Source: Symploca sp. SIO2E9 (GTDB lineage: Bacteria; Cyanobacteriota; Cyanobacteriia; Cyanobacteriales; Coleofasciculaceae). From it: a stretch of 39,385 bases of DNA. The stretch is taken from positions 1 through 39,385 of the forward strand of contig JAAHGS010000051.1 of the NCBI GenBank assembly GCA_010692645.1. The letters are read 5' to 3'. The notes below the pieces were generated by a model. That model was not told where the DNA came from. It ran no database searches and worked only from the letters and a program-made list of their open reading frames with translations. Position numbers and translations under genes: made by a program. Below, piece by piece: positions 788-35,001 of this stretch; within the stretch, counting starts at the first letter, position 1, and each line of letters opens with the position of its first letter.

Positions 788-895
788 TTAAGGGAGTGGG
801 GAGATGCATTTTCTTACTTCTGCCTCCTGCCTCCTGCCTTCTGCCTTTCCTGGGGAGATGGGGAGAAGAATTTTGACGTTGTGTTTTTAAGTCAA
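785..895. repeat. Minisatellite-type intergenic element, copy 1
   Basis: The stretch begins at the stop codon of the tail gene with TAATTAAGGGAG, close to the end sequence of other elements in this window (for example TAATTAGGGACT at 33170). It carries a short CTGCCTC-type repeat and a GGGGAGAT repeat at 852-866. This is followed by GACGTTGTGTTTTTAAGT, which matches the block TACGTCGTGTTTCTAAGT at 33304-33321 and, inverted, a block near 17958. The match of these blocks is seen directly; that they belong to one element family is inference. Confidence 0.6.
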
Positions 896-958
896 ACTCA
901 ATTTTTAACCCTTCCCCGCACTCTCAAGCATAGCTAAACAATAACCAGGAGCATCAAA

Positions 959-3678: not shown

Positions 3679-3788
3679 TAGCAGTCGCCACAGCTGTTAG
3701 GACACTTTCTTTTTCCCTGTTCCCTGTTCCCTGTTCCCTGTTCCCTTTGAATCAAAATACGATGTCCTAACCGACATGTCGGTTGCTA
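3679..3788. mobile_element. MITE-like element with 25-bp imperfect terminal inverted repeats and 9-bp direct flanks
   Basis: The left arm 3679-3703 (TAGCAGTC...GTTAGGAC) and the right arm 3764-3788 (GTCCTAAC...GTTGCTA) match as inverted repeats at about 18 of 25 positions, perfectly over the inner 8 bases. The core holds four copies of TTCCCTG. The 9-mer TATTACTTA flanks the element on both sides (3670-3678 and 3789-3797), as a target duplication would. No transposase is encoded. Caution: TTACTTA-type repeats are common here, so the flanks could be chance. Confidence 0.65.
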
Positions 3789-3837
3789 TATTACTTACCC
3801 TGTTCTAATCAACAAGTCCATGTTCTTTTAAAGGGGT

Positions 3838-6791: not shown

Positions 6792-7066
6792 TATTAAGGG
6801 GGTGAACGAAATTTTGCGTGGGATTTGAATTCTCCGCATCTCCGCATCTCCGCGTCTCCCCATCCCCCCATCTCCCCATCTCCCCATCTCCCCATCTCCC
6901 CATCTCCGCATCCCCGCATCCCCGCGTCTCCGCATCTCCGCATCTCCGCATCTCCGCATCTCCGCATCTCCGCATCTCCGCGTCTCCGCATCTCCGCGTC
7001 TCCGCATCTCCGCATCTCCGCGTCTCCCCGAGCCATCCCCGCGTCTTTAATTGGAAGTCCCTAATT
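6792..7066. repeat. 8-bp minisatellite inside a bounded intergenic element, copy 2
   Basis: From about 6831 to 7028 the unit C(A/G)TCTCC(G/C) repeats with period 8, first in a G-rich phase, then as CATCTCCC and again as CATCTCCG. The left side carries a 40-bp block (6798-6837) that occurs as a perfect inverted copy at 25512-25551. The right side carries TCTCCCCGAGCCATCCCC (7023-7040) and then CGCGTCTTTAATT and an end that reads AATTAGGGACTTCC inward from 7066. The stop codon of uppP lies in that end. Long reading frames through the array (repeated RRxGDAEM) are artefacts of the repeat. Confidence 0.88.
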
Positions 7067-11166: not shown

Positions 11167-11525
11167 TGCTTAAAGTGTGACGTATTTTTGTTACTCTACA
11201 CTTAGTATTGTAACCTTTCCCATCACTCAATCAAGGATTATAAGGGAACCTCAAGAATTAAAGACGCGGGGACACGGTGACACGGGGACGCGGGGACTTT
11301 CTTGGATGGGGATTTGACCTCAACCAATTTTATGCACCGCAAGTGACGGTGGGGTATTTAACCCAAATTAATTTCGATAAATTATCCAACCATATCCCCC
11401 TGTTCCCCATGAGAACACATGGTTTGATTCGCAACGATTGGAATTAGTTTAAAAAATGCAAAGGAATCTGAAGAGAAGTCAAAAGCTTATGTCGTGCATA
11501 ATACTAAAGTGCTACGGTGAAGGTG
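11167..11525. other. Intergenic region upstream of lrtA with repeat debris, element copy 3
   Basis: No gene is seen. ATAAGGGAACCTCAAG starts at 11240 and continues into AATTAAAGACGCGGGG. The first half matches the inverted right end at 33341-33355, and the second half matches the inverted end at 7037-7053. A short GGGGACACGG/GGGGACGCGG repeat follows to about 11297. A weak -10-like CATAAT at 11497-11502 could start the lrtA transcript about 90 bases before the ATG; no matching -35 is evident. Confidence 0.55.
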
Positions 11526-17910: not shown

Positions 17911-18035
17911 TTTCCCTTGAAACTAACTTAGAAATAAATTATCCAATTAACGCCAGGAACACAACGTAAAGACTCTTCTCCCCATCTCCCACTGCTCGAT
18001 TGGATATTTTTTTATTTGGAAGTTCTTTGGAAGTT
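17911..18035. repeat. Repeat element inserted between pstA and pstB, element copy 4
   Basis: AGAAATAAATTATCCAATT (17930-17948) is the exact reverse complement of 33323-33341. It continues with a block like the inverted ACGTCGTGTTTCT block of 33305 (here GGAACACAACGTAAAG) and a short CCCCATCTCCC core (17980-17990). On the right, ATTGGATATTTTTTTATTTG (17999-18018) mirrors the left arm, followed by GAAGTTC, so the unit has imperfect inverted ends. Continuous similarity to the 33171-33356 copy is seen by eye over about 60 bases. Confidence 0.7.
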
Positions 18036-18111
18036 TCTAATCGGTATTCTCGGTGCGAAGGTATAAGAGTGAAAAAAAATCCTACTTGATCAATTAACAA
18101 TTTGTACTTCG

Positions 18112-25206: not shown

Positions 25207-25263
25207 GGGATGGGGTGATGGGGGGATGGCTCGGGGAGACGGGGAGATGGGGAGATGGGGAAG
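25207..25263. repeat. Minisatellite upstream of rtcB, element copy 5
   Basis: GGGGATGG and GGGGAGAT units repeat with period close to 8. The motif GGGGATGGCTCGGGGAGA (25222-25239) is the exact reverse complement of 7023-7040 and 27203-27220. The array begins 20 bases upstream of the rtcB ATG and may carry its leader. From 25264 to about 25490 I see no gene or further feature. Confidence 0.85.
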
Positions 25264-25490
25264 AAATAGTGTATACAAAAATTTCCCCACACTACCTAAA
25301 CTTCCCTACCCTTCTTCCTCCTGACTCGGAGACTCTGAGTCTTTCTGCAAATGGTCGAAAGTGTAATTTAGATGCACAACAGCTTAGCGCCAAGATTACT
25401 TCTTTTATACTACAAAAATACTACAAAGGCAAGCTTGATTCAGTGTCTCAACAGGGTGAACGAAAAAAAGAGTGGGGCAAGGAGTAAGCA

Positions 25491-25551
25491 GACGCTCCAG
25501 ACGCTCCAGACGCGGAGAATTCAAATCCCACGCAAAATTTCGTTCACCCCC
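25491..25551. repeat. 9-bp repeat and 40-bp dispersed block at a gene-truncation point
   Basis: AGACGCTCC occurs twice in tandem (25491-25508), followed by AGACGCGGAG. Bases 25512-25551 are the exact reverse complement of 6798-6837, 40 of 40 bases. The coding-like sequence of the methyltransferase remnant starts immediately after this block. Confidence 0.95.
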
Positions 25552-27120: not shown

Positions 27121-27245
27121 AATAAGGGTACATCCCCATCTCCCCCTCTCCCTCTCTCCCCCTCTCCCCATCCCCCCATCTCCCCATCTCCCTCTCTCCC
27201 CATCTCCCCGAGCCATCCCCCCCTCTCCCTCTCTCCTCTCTAGTT
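27121..27245. repeat. Minisatellite-type intergenic element, copy 6
   Basis: It opens with AATAAGGGTAC, like the ends of the other elements, and continues as CATCTCCC/CTCTCCC units with period 7-8. It holds the conserved motif TCTCCCCGAGCCATCCCC at 27203-27220. It fills the space between the tRNA gene and the sigma-factor gene; the 26979-27120 part shows no feature. Confidence 0.85.
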
Positions 27246-32029: not shown

Positions 32030-33172
32030 ATGTCATCTAGAGATTTACCAGTGTTGTGGCTCATTTCCCTGCTGAAACAGGGGCATAATTGGTGGCTCTG
32101 TTGCTTATTGTGGCTTGTACTGATAGATCCAGCCCAAGCAGTAATGGAATTGCGAGTGGCAATTGAAGAGAGTGTCAGCGGATTGCAAGTTGGTAGTTCT
32201 ACTAAAGCTCTAGTTCGCAATGGCGCGGGACAGAAAGTTGGGGAACTAGAGGCAATGAGGGGTTTATCTGCGAACCCAAATGGTACAGGCGTTTCTCTTG
32301 CTCAGTGGCGCTCTGGTCAACTGTGGATTGAACCAACTGACGAGGGTTTTGTTTGGATTGGCGATCGCTGGTATCGAGGACGCACTCAATTGCTTTCCAC
32401 CAGTCAAGGGCTAACAGCTGTCAACCATGTTAACTTAGAACATTACCTCTACAGTGTCATTGGAGCAGAAATGAGTCCCAGTTGGCCTCTAGAAGCCCTG
32501 AAAGCACAAGCTGTAGCTGCTCGCTCCTATGCACTTCACAAAACCGATACTTCCCGCACTCGCCTCTATGATCTTGATGATACCGTCGCTTTCCAAGTTT
32601 ACAAAGGTATCGGCACTGAGGCTAACACCACCCATCAGGCAGTAAATGCTACAACTGGACAGGTAATGACCTATAACGGCAAGATTATTCTTGCTGTCTT
32701 TCATTCTGCTTCTGGGGGACATACTGAAAATGTCGAAGATATTTGGTCAAACCCCCTACCTTACTTACGAGGTGTCCCTGATTATGACATGGGAACACCA
32801 GTCTATAAGTGGACAAAAAACTTCTCCCGCAGTGAGATTAGCAGTAAAATTTCCGGTGTTGGCAATGTAGTCTCAATGACAGCAGAGCGTACTACTCCTA
32901 GAGGGCGGGTAATTACTATGAAGGTAGAAGGTGATCTTGGTAGACGTAGTATCAGCGGCAATGATTTGCGCAAAGCACTAGGTCTTAGAAGTAGATTGTT
33001 TACCGTTAACCCAACTGCTGAGGGTTTCCAAGTCAATGGTCGCGGCTTTGGTCACGGACTTGGTTTGAGTCAGTGGGGAGCTTATAATCTAGCAGCCAGG
33101 GGATTAAGTTACCATCAGATTTTAGTTTACTATTACCAGGGTGCAACCCTTGCCCAGCTTCAGTCGCAGTAA
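32030..33172 (+). CDS. SpoIID/LytB domain protein
   Basis: A secreted protein of 380 residues related to SpoIID, the lytic transglycosylase that trims peptidoglycan, and to LytB amidase enhancers. After a signal peptide (WWLCCLLWLVLIDPAQA) comes a beta-rich segment with VNLEHYLYSVIGAEMSPSWPLEALKAQAVAARSYAL, the hallmark motif, then FHSASGGHTENVEDIW and the closing GRGFGHGLGLSQWGAYNLAARG. GAGGA lies 11-15 bases before ATG 32030. The stop TAA is also the first bases of a repeat element. Confidence 0.9.
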   Translation: MSSRDLPVLWLISLLKQGHNWWLCCLLWLVLIDPAQAVMELRVAIEESVSGLQVGSSTKALVRNGAGQKVGELEAMRGLSANPNGTGVSLAQWRSGQLWIEPTDEGFVWIGDRWYRGRTQLLSTSQGLTAVNHVNLEHYLYSVIGAEMSPSWPLEALKAQAVAARSYALHKTDTSRTRLYDLDDTVAFQVYKGIGTEANTTHQAVNATTGQVMTYNGKIILAVFHSASGGHTENVEDIWSNPLPYLRGVPDYDMGTPVYKWTKNFSRSEISSKISGVGNVVSMTAERTTPRGRVITMKVEGDLGRRSISGNDLRKALGLRSRLFTVNPTAEGFQVNGRGFGHGLGLSQWGAYNLAARGLSYHQILVYYYQGATLAQLQSQ

Positions 33173-33356
33173 TTAGGGACTCACAAATAAAAAAGGAGAG
33201 GGGGAGAGGGGGAGAGGGGGGGATGGAGAGATGGGGAGATGGGGAGATGGGGAGAGGGGGAGATGGGGAGATGGGGAGACGGGGAGACGGGGAGATGAAT
33301 ATTTACGTCGTGTTTCTAAGTGAATTGGATAATTTATTTCTTGAAGTTCCCTTATT
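33171..33356. repeat. Minisatellite-cored element with terminal inverted repeats, copy 7 (best preserved)
   Basis: The left end AATTAGGGACTCACAAATAA (33171-33190) pairs imperfectly with the inverted right end (33333-33356), which reads AATAAGGGAACTTCAAG... from the outside. Between them are GGGGAGAG/GGGGAGAT/GGGGAGAC units of about 8 bp (33196-33297) and the block TTTACGTCGTGTTTCTAAG. The element sits exactly between two convergent genes, and both their stop codons lie in its ends. It encodes no protein. Confidence 0.8.
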
Positions 33357-35001
33357 TTTTAATAAAAATTCCTGTATTGTTGACCTCTAAGGGCAGAAAT
33401 ACTGTCATTACTCTACCTGCTTGCGGTCGCTGGCGCACAATTAGTTTACCTCCCAAAGCTTGAAACAAATTTTTTGTCACATTGAGATTCAAACTGAGAC
33501 TGCCAGTTTCCGGTTGGAACATTAACAACTGACCAATCGACTTCAATGTTGAACAAGTTGGCTTTTCTGACTTAGCTTCAGCAGCAAACTGAGATTGGAA
33601 TTGTAACTTCAACTGATTTCCTGCTGGTATAACTTGCACTTGGATCTGATTGCCTGCTGGTAGAGAGCGGGTGAAGTTTTCCATTAAGCCTGTCAGCACC
33701 TGAGTTAACAGATTCGGATTACTGACAACTGCAGGTAGTTGTTGCGGTAAGACAACATCTAGAGTTAAGTTACACCTCTGCGCTTGCTTTTGCCAGTGAG
33801 GAATGTTTTGCTCAATAACCTGAGCTAATGACATGGAGGTGAGGTTAACTGCCACTTTCTTGGCTGTAGTTGTCTCCAATTCTACTGCTCGAAAGATCAG
33901 CTCCATGCGGTTAATTTGTTCTGTACACTCATGGTCGATGATTTCCAGACGCCGGAGTACTTCAGGAGGCAAATCACGGCGCTTGAGTAGCAGTTTGGTT
34001 AGGGTACAAATTGTGGTTAGAGGCGTTCTGATTTCGTGGGTTAGTGCTTGCAGCAATTCAAGATCCGGCGTTGGTTCACGAGCATTAGAAATTTTACTAA
34101 CCTCTGGCTCCTTATTTTTCTGCAATGGCTCCCAATGGCGATCATTTAAGGTATCAACCTGAGGATGAGCTTTTTCTGGCTGAGGAGTTGAATCTGTAGA
34201 ATTAACTGCTATGGTCTGAATAGATTCTGTTCGAGGCAATTCTGGGATATTTTTCAGTAGCAGGCGACTGAAGCGCGTAACCAGGCGGTAATCAGGAGAT
34301 TTAGGAGCAAAATCTCTAACTAAAGTTTCTAGCTTGCTGAGCTGATGTGGGCTAGTTAGTAAAATTCTAGGCTTTAGTGAGATCCAAGCCTTGTCAATGA
34401 CTTCTGGATCAAAGGAAAACTGAAAGGCTGGAGAACCTTCAAGATCAAATCCAGCCACCATTACCAAGCTAAAGCTCTTGCTAAATATTAGGCAAAATTG
34501 CTCGGTAGCCAAGGTATCGATTGGTAACAATGGTAGTTTATAGGTGGTATTTATAACCTGTTGATGCTGCTCATTATTAGCTGGGGCTAACTGCAAGGGC
34601 ATCCAAGACAGAGTGCTAAAGATTTCAGCACTAAAAATTCCTGTCTGGAAACTAGAAATCAAATCTGGGTTACTCAACACTGGTACAGGGCCAGCCAATA
34701 CTAATCCTTGTGGGTATGGTAACTCCTGATTATCTACCTCGACAGATTTGCCTGTCTCAGAAACAGAGTCCCCTCTCCGGCTAATTTCTTGTAAGAGTAA
34801 CTCTTCGACAGTCATAATGGCACTAGACCACTGCCGTTGAACTTTGGCATGCTTTCTTTCGAGGTAATCGTTAAAATCTGGCTGAGTATTTTCTTTAGCA
34901 GTTGTCTGTCTAACCTGAGGTACAACCTGGCTAGCTCCCTCTAATTGTTCACTCCGAGCTAAAACTTCACTTAAGCTTAGTAACGACCACTTTTGCACCA
35001 C
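33352..35001 (-). CDS. Sensor histidine kinase with degenerate ATP-binding domain
   Basis: A soluble protein of 549 residues. The first 250 residues form a sensor-like region I do not recognise, including a hydrophobic FCLIFSKSFSLVMVAGFDLEG strand. A charged linker leads to a HisKA domain with the phospho-acceptor His322 in LLQALTHEIRTPLTTICTL. The C-terminal HATPase-like part is weak: the N-box reads LLTQVLTGLMENFTRS, the DxGxG G1 box is not found, and the second glycine box reads GSLSLNLNVTKNLFQALGG. It may bind ATP poorly or act as a scaffold. No response regulator is next to it. Confidence 0.83.
   Translation of the reverse strand: MVQKWSLLSLSEVLARSEQLEGASQVVPQVRQTTAKENTQPDFNDYLERKHAKVQRQWSSAIMTVEELLLQEISRRGDSVSETGKSVEVDNQELPYPQGLVLAGPVPVLSNPDLISSFQTGIFSAEIFSTLSWMPLQLAPANNEQHQQVINTTYKLPLLPIDTLATEQFCLIFSKSFSLVMVAGFDLEGSPAFQFSFDPEVIDKAWISLKPRILLTSPHQLSKLETLVRDFAPKSPDYRLVTRFSRLLLKNIPELPRTESIQTIAVNSTDSTPQPEKAHPQVDTLNDRHWEPLQKNKEPEVSKISNAREPTPDLELLQALTHEIRTPLTTICTLTKLLLKRRDLPPEVLRRLEIIDHECTEQINRMELIFRAVELETTTAKKVAVNLTSMSLAQVIEQNIPHWQKQAQRCNLTLDVVLPQQLPAVVSNPNLLTQVLTGLMENFTRSLPAGNQIQVQVIPAGNQLKLQFQSQFAAEAKSEKPTCSTLKSIGQLLMFQPETGSLSLNLNVTKNLFQALGGKLIVRQRPQAGRVMTVFLPLEVNNTGIFIKK

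Follow-up and report, generated by a model that had tools for sequence, protein, structure and literature searches.

The window, a stretch of 39,385 nucleotides from Symploca sp. SIO2E9 that was analysed as a whole, is contig 331 of a 7.75-Mb draft genome of 383 contigs. Four of its gene labels are backed by Pfam: the tail gene (Tail_P2_I), uppP (BacA), the SpoIID-like gene (SpoIID) and a histidine kinase gene (HisKA). Between the last two lies an element of 176 bp (33176-33351, minus strand), delimited by end searches and by comparison with a congeneric genome (G001), with TTA on either side. The TAA stop of the SpoIID-like gene (33170-33172) abuts the low-coordinate TTA of this target-site duplication (33173-33175, no strand, read from the sequence), and the other TTA (33352-33354, minus strand) is the TAA stop of the histidine kinase gene (33352-35001, minus strand, stop 33352-33354). 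The minus-strand end of the element, GGGAACTTCAAGAAATAAATTATCC, has the typical form of its family and the plus-strand end, GGGACTCACAAATAAAAAA, has diverged; the core is an 8-bp minisatellite (33195-33297, plus strand) of 12.9 copies of the unit GGAGATGG, as called by Tandem Repeats Finder. An earlier, sequence-only reading of the window had noted one end at 33171 and an inverted one at 33356, and these are the two ends of the single element 33176-33351. The repeat at 33171-33356 is a real MITE, and its family (family A) is a small parasitic DNA element of filamentous cyanobacteria. The pair of ends marks a true element because the longer end sequences show it, despite the chance-level frequency of the 10-letter end motif, which was rejected as evidence since it has 16 matches in the window at up to one mismatch against 12.5 expected by chance.

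The same reading had proposed six occurrences of a common end in the window, four of them at stop codons. The sites at 33171, 33356 and 7066 fit the family well or fairly, that at 786 is a degenerate copy, that at 11240 is a relative, and 27121 (TAAGGGTACATCCCC) was rejected as a family copy because the inner end sequence is missing there. Relative to the element border, the stops of the histidine kinase gene and uppP do coincide with an end, that of the SpoIID-like gene abuts the duplication, and that of the tail gene (785-787) ends 4 bases before the border (GGG at 792). At 7066 there is a good family-A end, GGGACTTCCAATTAAAG on the minus strand. It belongs to a composite unit of 264 bp (6798-7061, minus strand, delimited by Tandem Repeats Finder and sequence) with TAA on both sides (6795-6797 and 7062-7064), which has a family-A-like end at 7061, an 8-bp array at 6831-7027 and, at its opposite end at 6798, the end of a second family (family B, GGGGGTGAACGAAA); the TAG stop of uppP (7061-7063) spans the border and consists of TA from the flank and the first G of the element. 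The degenerate copy near 786 (792-905, minus strand, far border approximate) has a GGGAG border after TAA (789-791) and a recognisable inner sequence, GAATTTTGACGTTGTGTTTTTAAGT, and lacks an intact second end. The relative near 11240 is a dispersed element of its own kind, related to the family (GGGAACCTCAAGAATTAAAGACGCGGGG..; 11244-11390, plus strand, far end approximate) with a short 8-bp core. Its stretch 11252-11389 occurs at 22 other places in the congener among the matches listed, and the element is unmatched at the congeneric site, where 76 bp lie between the aligned blocks compared with 257 here. A further degenerate copy that the reading had missed (about 17913-18037, plus strand, borders approximate) has the right end GGATATTTTTTTATTTGGAAGTTC and no real array; it is not matched in G001, where the flanking blocks adjoin at only 78% identity, so that the counterpart may be a paralogue.

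Several other repeats share the window with family A. Inverted ends GGGTGAACGAAA/TTTCGTTCACCC around an 8- or 9-bp core (CAGACGCTC) define a second MITE-like family at 25454-25551, seen also at 6798-6840, at L350:10740-10850 and in loci L025 and L030, inside or adjoining family-A copies. At about 3700-3790 a 7-bp core of TTCCCTG/CCCTGCT is bounded by AGGACAC../..TGTCCTAAC ends; this element recurs, nested within a family-A copy, in locus L020 at about 1500-1700. Across several copies and families the 8-bp arrays share a recurrent interruption, GAGCCAT (CTCCCCGAGCCATCCCC), in the window for example at about 7029-7036, 25226-25233 and 27208-27216.

The ends of family A recur throughout the genome of Symploca sp. 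SIO2E9. The right end (26 letters, up to 3 mismatches) has 71 matches compared with none for the reversed pattern, and the left end (20 letters) has 125 compared with 17 for its reversed control. The common genomic form, read by eye, is GGGAACTCCAAGAAATAAATTATCCAATTTACTTGGAAATATGACC..AAGAATCTTCTCCCC-array-CTCCTCGATGGGATATTTTTTTATTTGGAAGTCCC, in which the left and right ends are each about 25 bp long and imperfectly inverted, and are thus terminal inverted repeats of the kind that characterises MITEs. The 32 complete copies in this genome measure 100-234 bp, too short for a transposase gene. More widely, the right end is present in 13 of 57 genomes (the own genome and 56 relatives; none for the reversed control), and a scan of named genomes placed the left end in at least 91 stretches under about 15 genus names among the matches listed, Nostoc being the commonest. 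A 66-base end query had no match in phages.

Mobility is evident from target duplications and from empty sites. An exact 3-bp duplication lies outside GGG..CCC in 26 of the 32 complete own copies (13 TTA, 11 TAA, 1 CAA and 1 TTG), compared with a mean of 12.3 and a maximum of 20 in 2000 shuffles of the flank pairs. In complete copies from other cyanobacterial genomes, whose left flank, and not the right, is biased to WA because the pattern for the named genomes demanded W-A before GGGAAC, the duplication is exact in 51 of 58 (shuffled flank pairs: mean 24.4, maximum 35). The congeneric genome G001, which is 85-92% identical over long syntenic blocks, lacks the window element: a few bases join the conserved flanks, and since this join has 7-8 extra bases, the locus there is an empty site that also carries a small indel. 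We also followed the 16 own borders that overlap a stop codon (15 elements, #9 and #10 being opposite borders of a single element between convergent gene ends) into G001, where 14 lack the ends of the element and 2 are filled. The family thus combines multiple copies (71 right ends) with insertion polymorphism (14 of 16 borders lacking the element in the congener), as is typical of MITEs, and the empty sites that the sequence-only reading had hoped to find in a relative do exist. Site #8 is not cleanly empty, because the congener (locus L343) carries a bare 8-bp GGGGAGAT array there, without family-A ends and adjoining the same gene end. A far end was found for 12 of the 16 borders, and the duplication is exact in all but one of them (#5); at #8, #12 and #16 the far end was not found and that of #11 looks spurious, leaving these four without a verified duplication.

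A probable source of the transposase emerged from plasmids of Nostocales, which the family ends match. Eleven of the 16 matching plasmid records were examined (all except H22, H23 and H26-H28), and 8 of these 11 loci carry a homologue of the ISAzo13 transposase on 1.56-1.67 kb bounded by two such ends. The 3-bp flanks are exact at 5 of the 8 (four TTA, one TAA) and read AAA/TAA, TTA/ATT and TAA/TTG at the other 3. The remaining 3 plasmid loci comprise one with a transposase fragment and one end, and two with one end and no homologue. One of the insertion sequence (IS) loci is annotated as 'ISAzo13 family transposase' and three as 'transposase', and the rest have no gene listed. The IS transposase matches Pfam DDE_Tnp_ISAZ013 at 1.5e-66, and fragments of 257 and 263 aa score 197.4 and 199.8 bits with the NCBIfam model transpos_ISAzo13, just below its 200-bit cut-off. 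The own MITE ends are similar, and not identical, to the IS ends (19-22 of 27 positions), and the MITE end of a further genome (G003) agrees with them at up to 24 of 27. ISAzo13-family insertion sequences (NF033519 / PF07592) thus resemble the MITE in their terminal GGGACTTCC..AATAAA..TAT and in their TWA 3-bp flanks (5 of 8 exact), and differ in being about 1.56-1.67 kb long with a transposase gene, which the MITE copies do not show; this comparison covers the ends only. Ends and duplication are accordingly common to the MITE and to an autonomous ISAzo13 element, as in an ISAzo13-derived MITE. Since 8 of the 11 plasmid loci have ISAzo13-family transposons enclosed by similar ends, ISAzo13 is the likely source of the transposase for the window's MITE family, as judged from sequence comparison.

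An autonomous partner was sought in the own genome as well. A protein search, which found relatives in 4 of 20 genomes, gave no ISAzo13 transposase in the own draft, and the PF07592 profile had no match in that draft and matched none of 14 controls. No autonomous copy was found among the family loci collected (148 left ends, 101 of them paired), the longest pair spanning 485 bp. As the draft consists of 383 contigs, it may harbour an unassembled ISAzo13 copy. With no such transposase found in this draft, the copies may be silent, or may be driven by an element that is lost, unassembled or different. In another genome, G002, an autonomous body was likewise not found, and contigs stop within longer elements whose ends are related. 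Nine G002 contigs (C81, C123, C169, C201, C282, C426, C431, C435 and C444) break about 125 bp inside such elements, which have the ends GGGACTTCCAAAAAATAAAACATCCC and a common GAATGATAATCATTGTCA block. The longer elements in G002 are probably an unassembled full-length insertion sequence.

The cores of the family vary with the lineage and differ in length at a shared site. Tandem Repeats Finder with a low score threshold (24) called an array of 6-10 bp units in 24 of the 32 complete own copies, 22 of them with 8-bp units, and none was detectable in the other 8. In other genomes 31 of 58 copies hold a 6-10-bp array, 23 of these with 7-bp units (CCCTGCT type), and 27 are without one; 9 of the 58 carry a palindromic GGTGGGC..GCCCACC core instead. 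Array-less own copies retain a short CTTCTC/CTTCTCCCC stretch, which is a plausible seed of the arrays. At the shared site #7 the number of ATTGGGGG units is higher in the own genome than in G001; the core also differs between the two genomes at shared site #3, too irregularly for a count of units, so that the argument for change of the core in place depends on a single clear site. Together with the sharp ends, the duplications, the empty sites and the autonomous relative, this length difference bears out the earlier suggestion that the repeat is mobile, non-autonomous and variable in its core.

An opposite order of events, in which the minisatellites predate the ends, and the latter are fortuitous or captured flanking sequences that decorate the borders of immobile arrays, would account for the bare array of the congener at site #8, and for the fact that most arrays lie outside recognisable copies. 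A 400-kb sample of the own genome, not chosen for copies, contains 24 8-bp arrays, of which 2 have a recognisable family-A end within 250 bp, in each case on a single side; for random stretches the figure is about 0.4% (the sample contains 7 ends, 3 with reversed references). Family A hence does not account for most arrays. For family A, however, this order is largely contradicted by the empty sites, and copies with sharp ends and 3-bp duplications, including array-less copies with the same ends, make it highly improbable. Arrays are often flanked by dispersed repeats: for arrays with a score of at least 40 in a 440-kb sample that includes the window, flanks match at least 2 other places in 52 of 114 cases for 7-bp units and 22 of 56 for 8-bp units, compared with 84 of 800 intergenic control segments. 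The flank sequences point to two or more additional families that carry G-rich arrays, one of the GGGTGAACGAAA..TTTCGTTCACC type and one of the TAAGC..GCTTA type. As a tentative extension, which we hold to be rather less probable than its opposite, the abundant short tandem repeats of these cyanobacteria (STRRs) might largely have been born as the cores of several MITE families, with a C/T-rich seed scattered by the elements and expanded by lineage into 7-, 8- or 9-bp arrays, similar G-rich arrays being common to unrelated families. If true, this would explain where the long-known STRRs come from and how they spread.

Two further array types were noted in passing. A 7-bp GGCAGAA-type array recurs inside 8-bp arrays (L004, L009, L013, L126 and L144) with similar borders, running from ..AAAGGCAG.. 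or ..GAAGGCAG.. to ..GGCAGAAAATTCATCTCC. A dispersed family with an 8-bp G-rich core and flanks like TAAGCTGTTACGCCTTTAAAT and AATTTAGATGCAAAACGGCTTA is found at L357:7352, L358:18285, L358:13974 and L359:9696. A separate lead comes from the 131 own borders described below, where, downstream of genes, the sense strand is more often the G-rich one.

The coincidence with stop codons, which the sequence-only reading had wished to see set against expectation, was assessed for 131 unique borders from 101 own loci, a subset of the hits in the genome, with mechanical ORFs of at least 100 aa; a threshold of 150 aa gave the same picture of stop overlap. A stop codon is overlapped at 16 of the 131 borders, compared with 1.48% of 12,811 intergenic or stop-preserving TWA sites (8.3-fold), and in other species, whose loci include some from the congener, at 10 of 162 compared with 1.55% (4.0-fold). 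At 11-50 nt downstream of gene ends there is still a 3.5-fold excess in the own genome and a 3.7-fold excess in other species. The excess at stops belongs to a broader bias towards gene 3' ends, and the suspected preference for these ends is thereby upheld. In 12 of the 16 own overlaps the stop is formed by the three letters adjoining the element, and in 4 it is a TAG made of TA from the flank and the element's first G.

These junction-made stops, at 4 of 131 borders and additionally at uppP in the window, which lies outside the 131, are what one would expect if the repeat supplied stop codons or truncated genes, as the sequence-only reading had considered. At the junction cases #4 and #9, however, the congener without the element has a stop at the same position, and so do 10 of the 14 element-less G001 sites overall (TGA in one); at #5, #10, #11 and #15 the end differs or is not alignable to the end. 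Wherever the site is readable, the element lands on an existing stop and leaves a stop in place, and the supply of stops by the repeat can be given hardly any credence. A more serious contender is that the element actively targets stops or gene 3' ends or is selected there, for instance as a terminator or an RNA stabiliser. Within -1 to 50 nt of gene ends in the own genome, stop overlaps make up 16 of 39 borders compared with 22% expected (p=0.006), and genes enter the right end, which gives a G-rich transcript, at 26 of 59 borders compared with 13 of 72 for the left end (p=0.002). In other species, by contrast, there is neither an extra at the stop (10 of 44 compared with 24%, p=0.63) nor an orientation bias (19 of 63 into the right end, 25 of 99 into the left, p=0.59). 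The one element that was folded as RNA, that of the window, folds no better than its shuffles (z -0.68), and selection against promoter hits would yield the same bias to 3' ends. We regard targeting of, or selection at, stops as unlikely compared with harmless landing at TWA: a TWA target includes the stop codon TAA, which, on top of the general 3'-end bias, explains the overlap.

We thus favour, with considerable confidence, a MITE family (own copies of 100-234 bp) that is moved in trans by a DDE transposase of the ISAzo13 family, has TWA as its target, is harmless at stops and has a core that expands after insertion. The transposase would recognise ends of the type GGGA(A)CTYCCAA..AAATAAA..TATCC and insert the element at TWA (TTA/TAA), those 3 bp being duplicated. 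Insertion on TAA or TAG would keep an in-frame stop, either as the duplicated TAA or as TTA with the first G of the element (TAG); such insertions would leave the protein unchanged and would therefore persist. Once inserted, the core would expand from a short C/T-rich stretch (..CTTCTCCCC..) through slippage or tandem duplication, in this genome mostly in 8-bp units and in Nostoc in 7-bp units. Movement by an ISAzo13 transposase, slippage-driven growth and the C/T-rich seed are the inferred parts of this model. Short tandem repeats of cyanobacteria are used for strain fingerprinting, and the model would link this class of repeats to a mobile element for which a candidate enzyme family can be named. 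It also explains harmless repeats on stop codons, the TWA target being itself a stop codon. As insertions of one species are missing in a congener and cores differ in length, the growth of minisatellites could be traced from a known start.

A search of the open-access literature, made mostly on titles and the beginnings of abstracts, gave no description of an ISAzo13-linked MITE family in cyanobacteria. Nezha is reportedly a MITE of Anabaena and Nostoc, said to have been described by Zhou in 2008. Its proposed mover is a resident ISNpu3-like IS (PMC3049150), and the window family resembles it, at the level of description, as a cyanobacterial MITE with a proposed IS helper; the two may or may not be the same family. 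G-rich heptamer repeats are on record for Xanthomonas and Nostoc PCC 7120, as are STRR heptamers (PMC4692102); related literature includes a review of MITEs (PMC10969869) and work on tagged REPs (PMC3733652). Unlike the heptamers as presented there, the repeat here is the core of a MITE, and the flanks of arrays are often dispersed repeats. BOX elements differ from the window family in their ends and architecture, and in their host, Streptococcus pneumoniae rather than cyanobacteria. As described, 36 of 58 gene overlaps of BOX cover the extreme 3' end of the gene and encode its stop, with no strong evidence of truncation (PMC3049150). Closest in kind is BrickBuilt of Porphyromonas gingivalis, and the earlier reading's remark that it knew of no such described family holds, within the literature searched, for an ISAzo13-linked cyanobacterial one and fails for MITEs with a minisatellite core (PMC4596501). 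BrickBuilt is non-autonomous and intergenic, its ends are inverted, the copy number of its tandem-repeat core varies, and the presence of one copy differs between strains; it has a 23-bp unit, 19 copies in ATCC 33277, no uniform target duplication and ends closest to ISPg elements of the IS5 family (PMC4596501). Non-autonomy, inverted ends and a tandem-repeat core are common to both, whereas the window family has mostly 7-8-bp units, ISAzo13-like ends, a 3-bp duplication of TWA type and changeable cores, and is found under about 15 cyanobacterial genus names among the matches listed. It is set apart from BrickBuilt, as the latter is described, by units of 8 or 7 bp in most arrays where BrickBuilt has 23 bp, and by ends that resemble ISAzo13 elements where those of BrickBuilt resemble ISPg/IS5. 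The kind of element is therefore known from at least one bacterial precedent, BrickBuilt, and what is new here is the likely link to ISAzo13, the explanation of stop-codon insertions by a TWA target and the lineage-specific cores.
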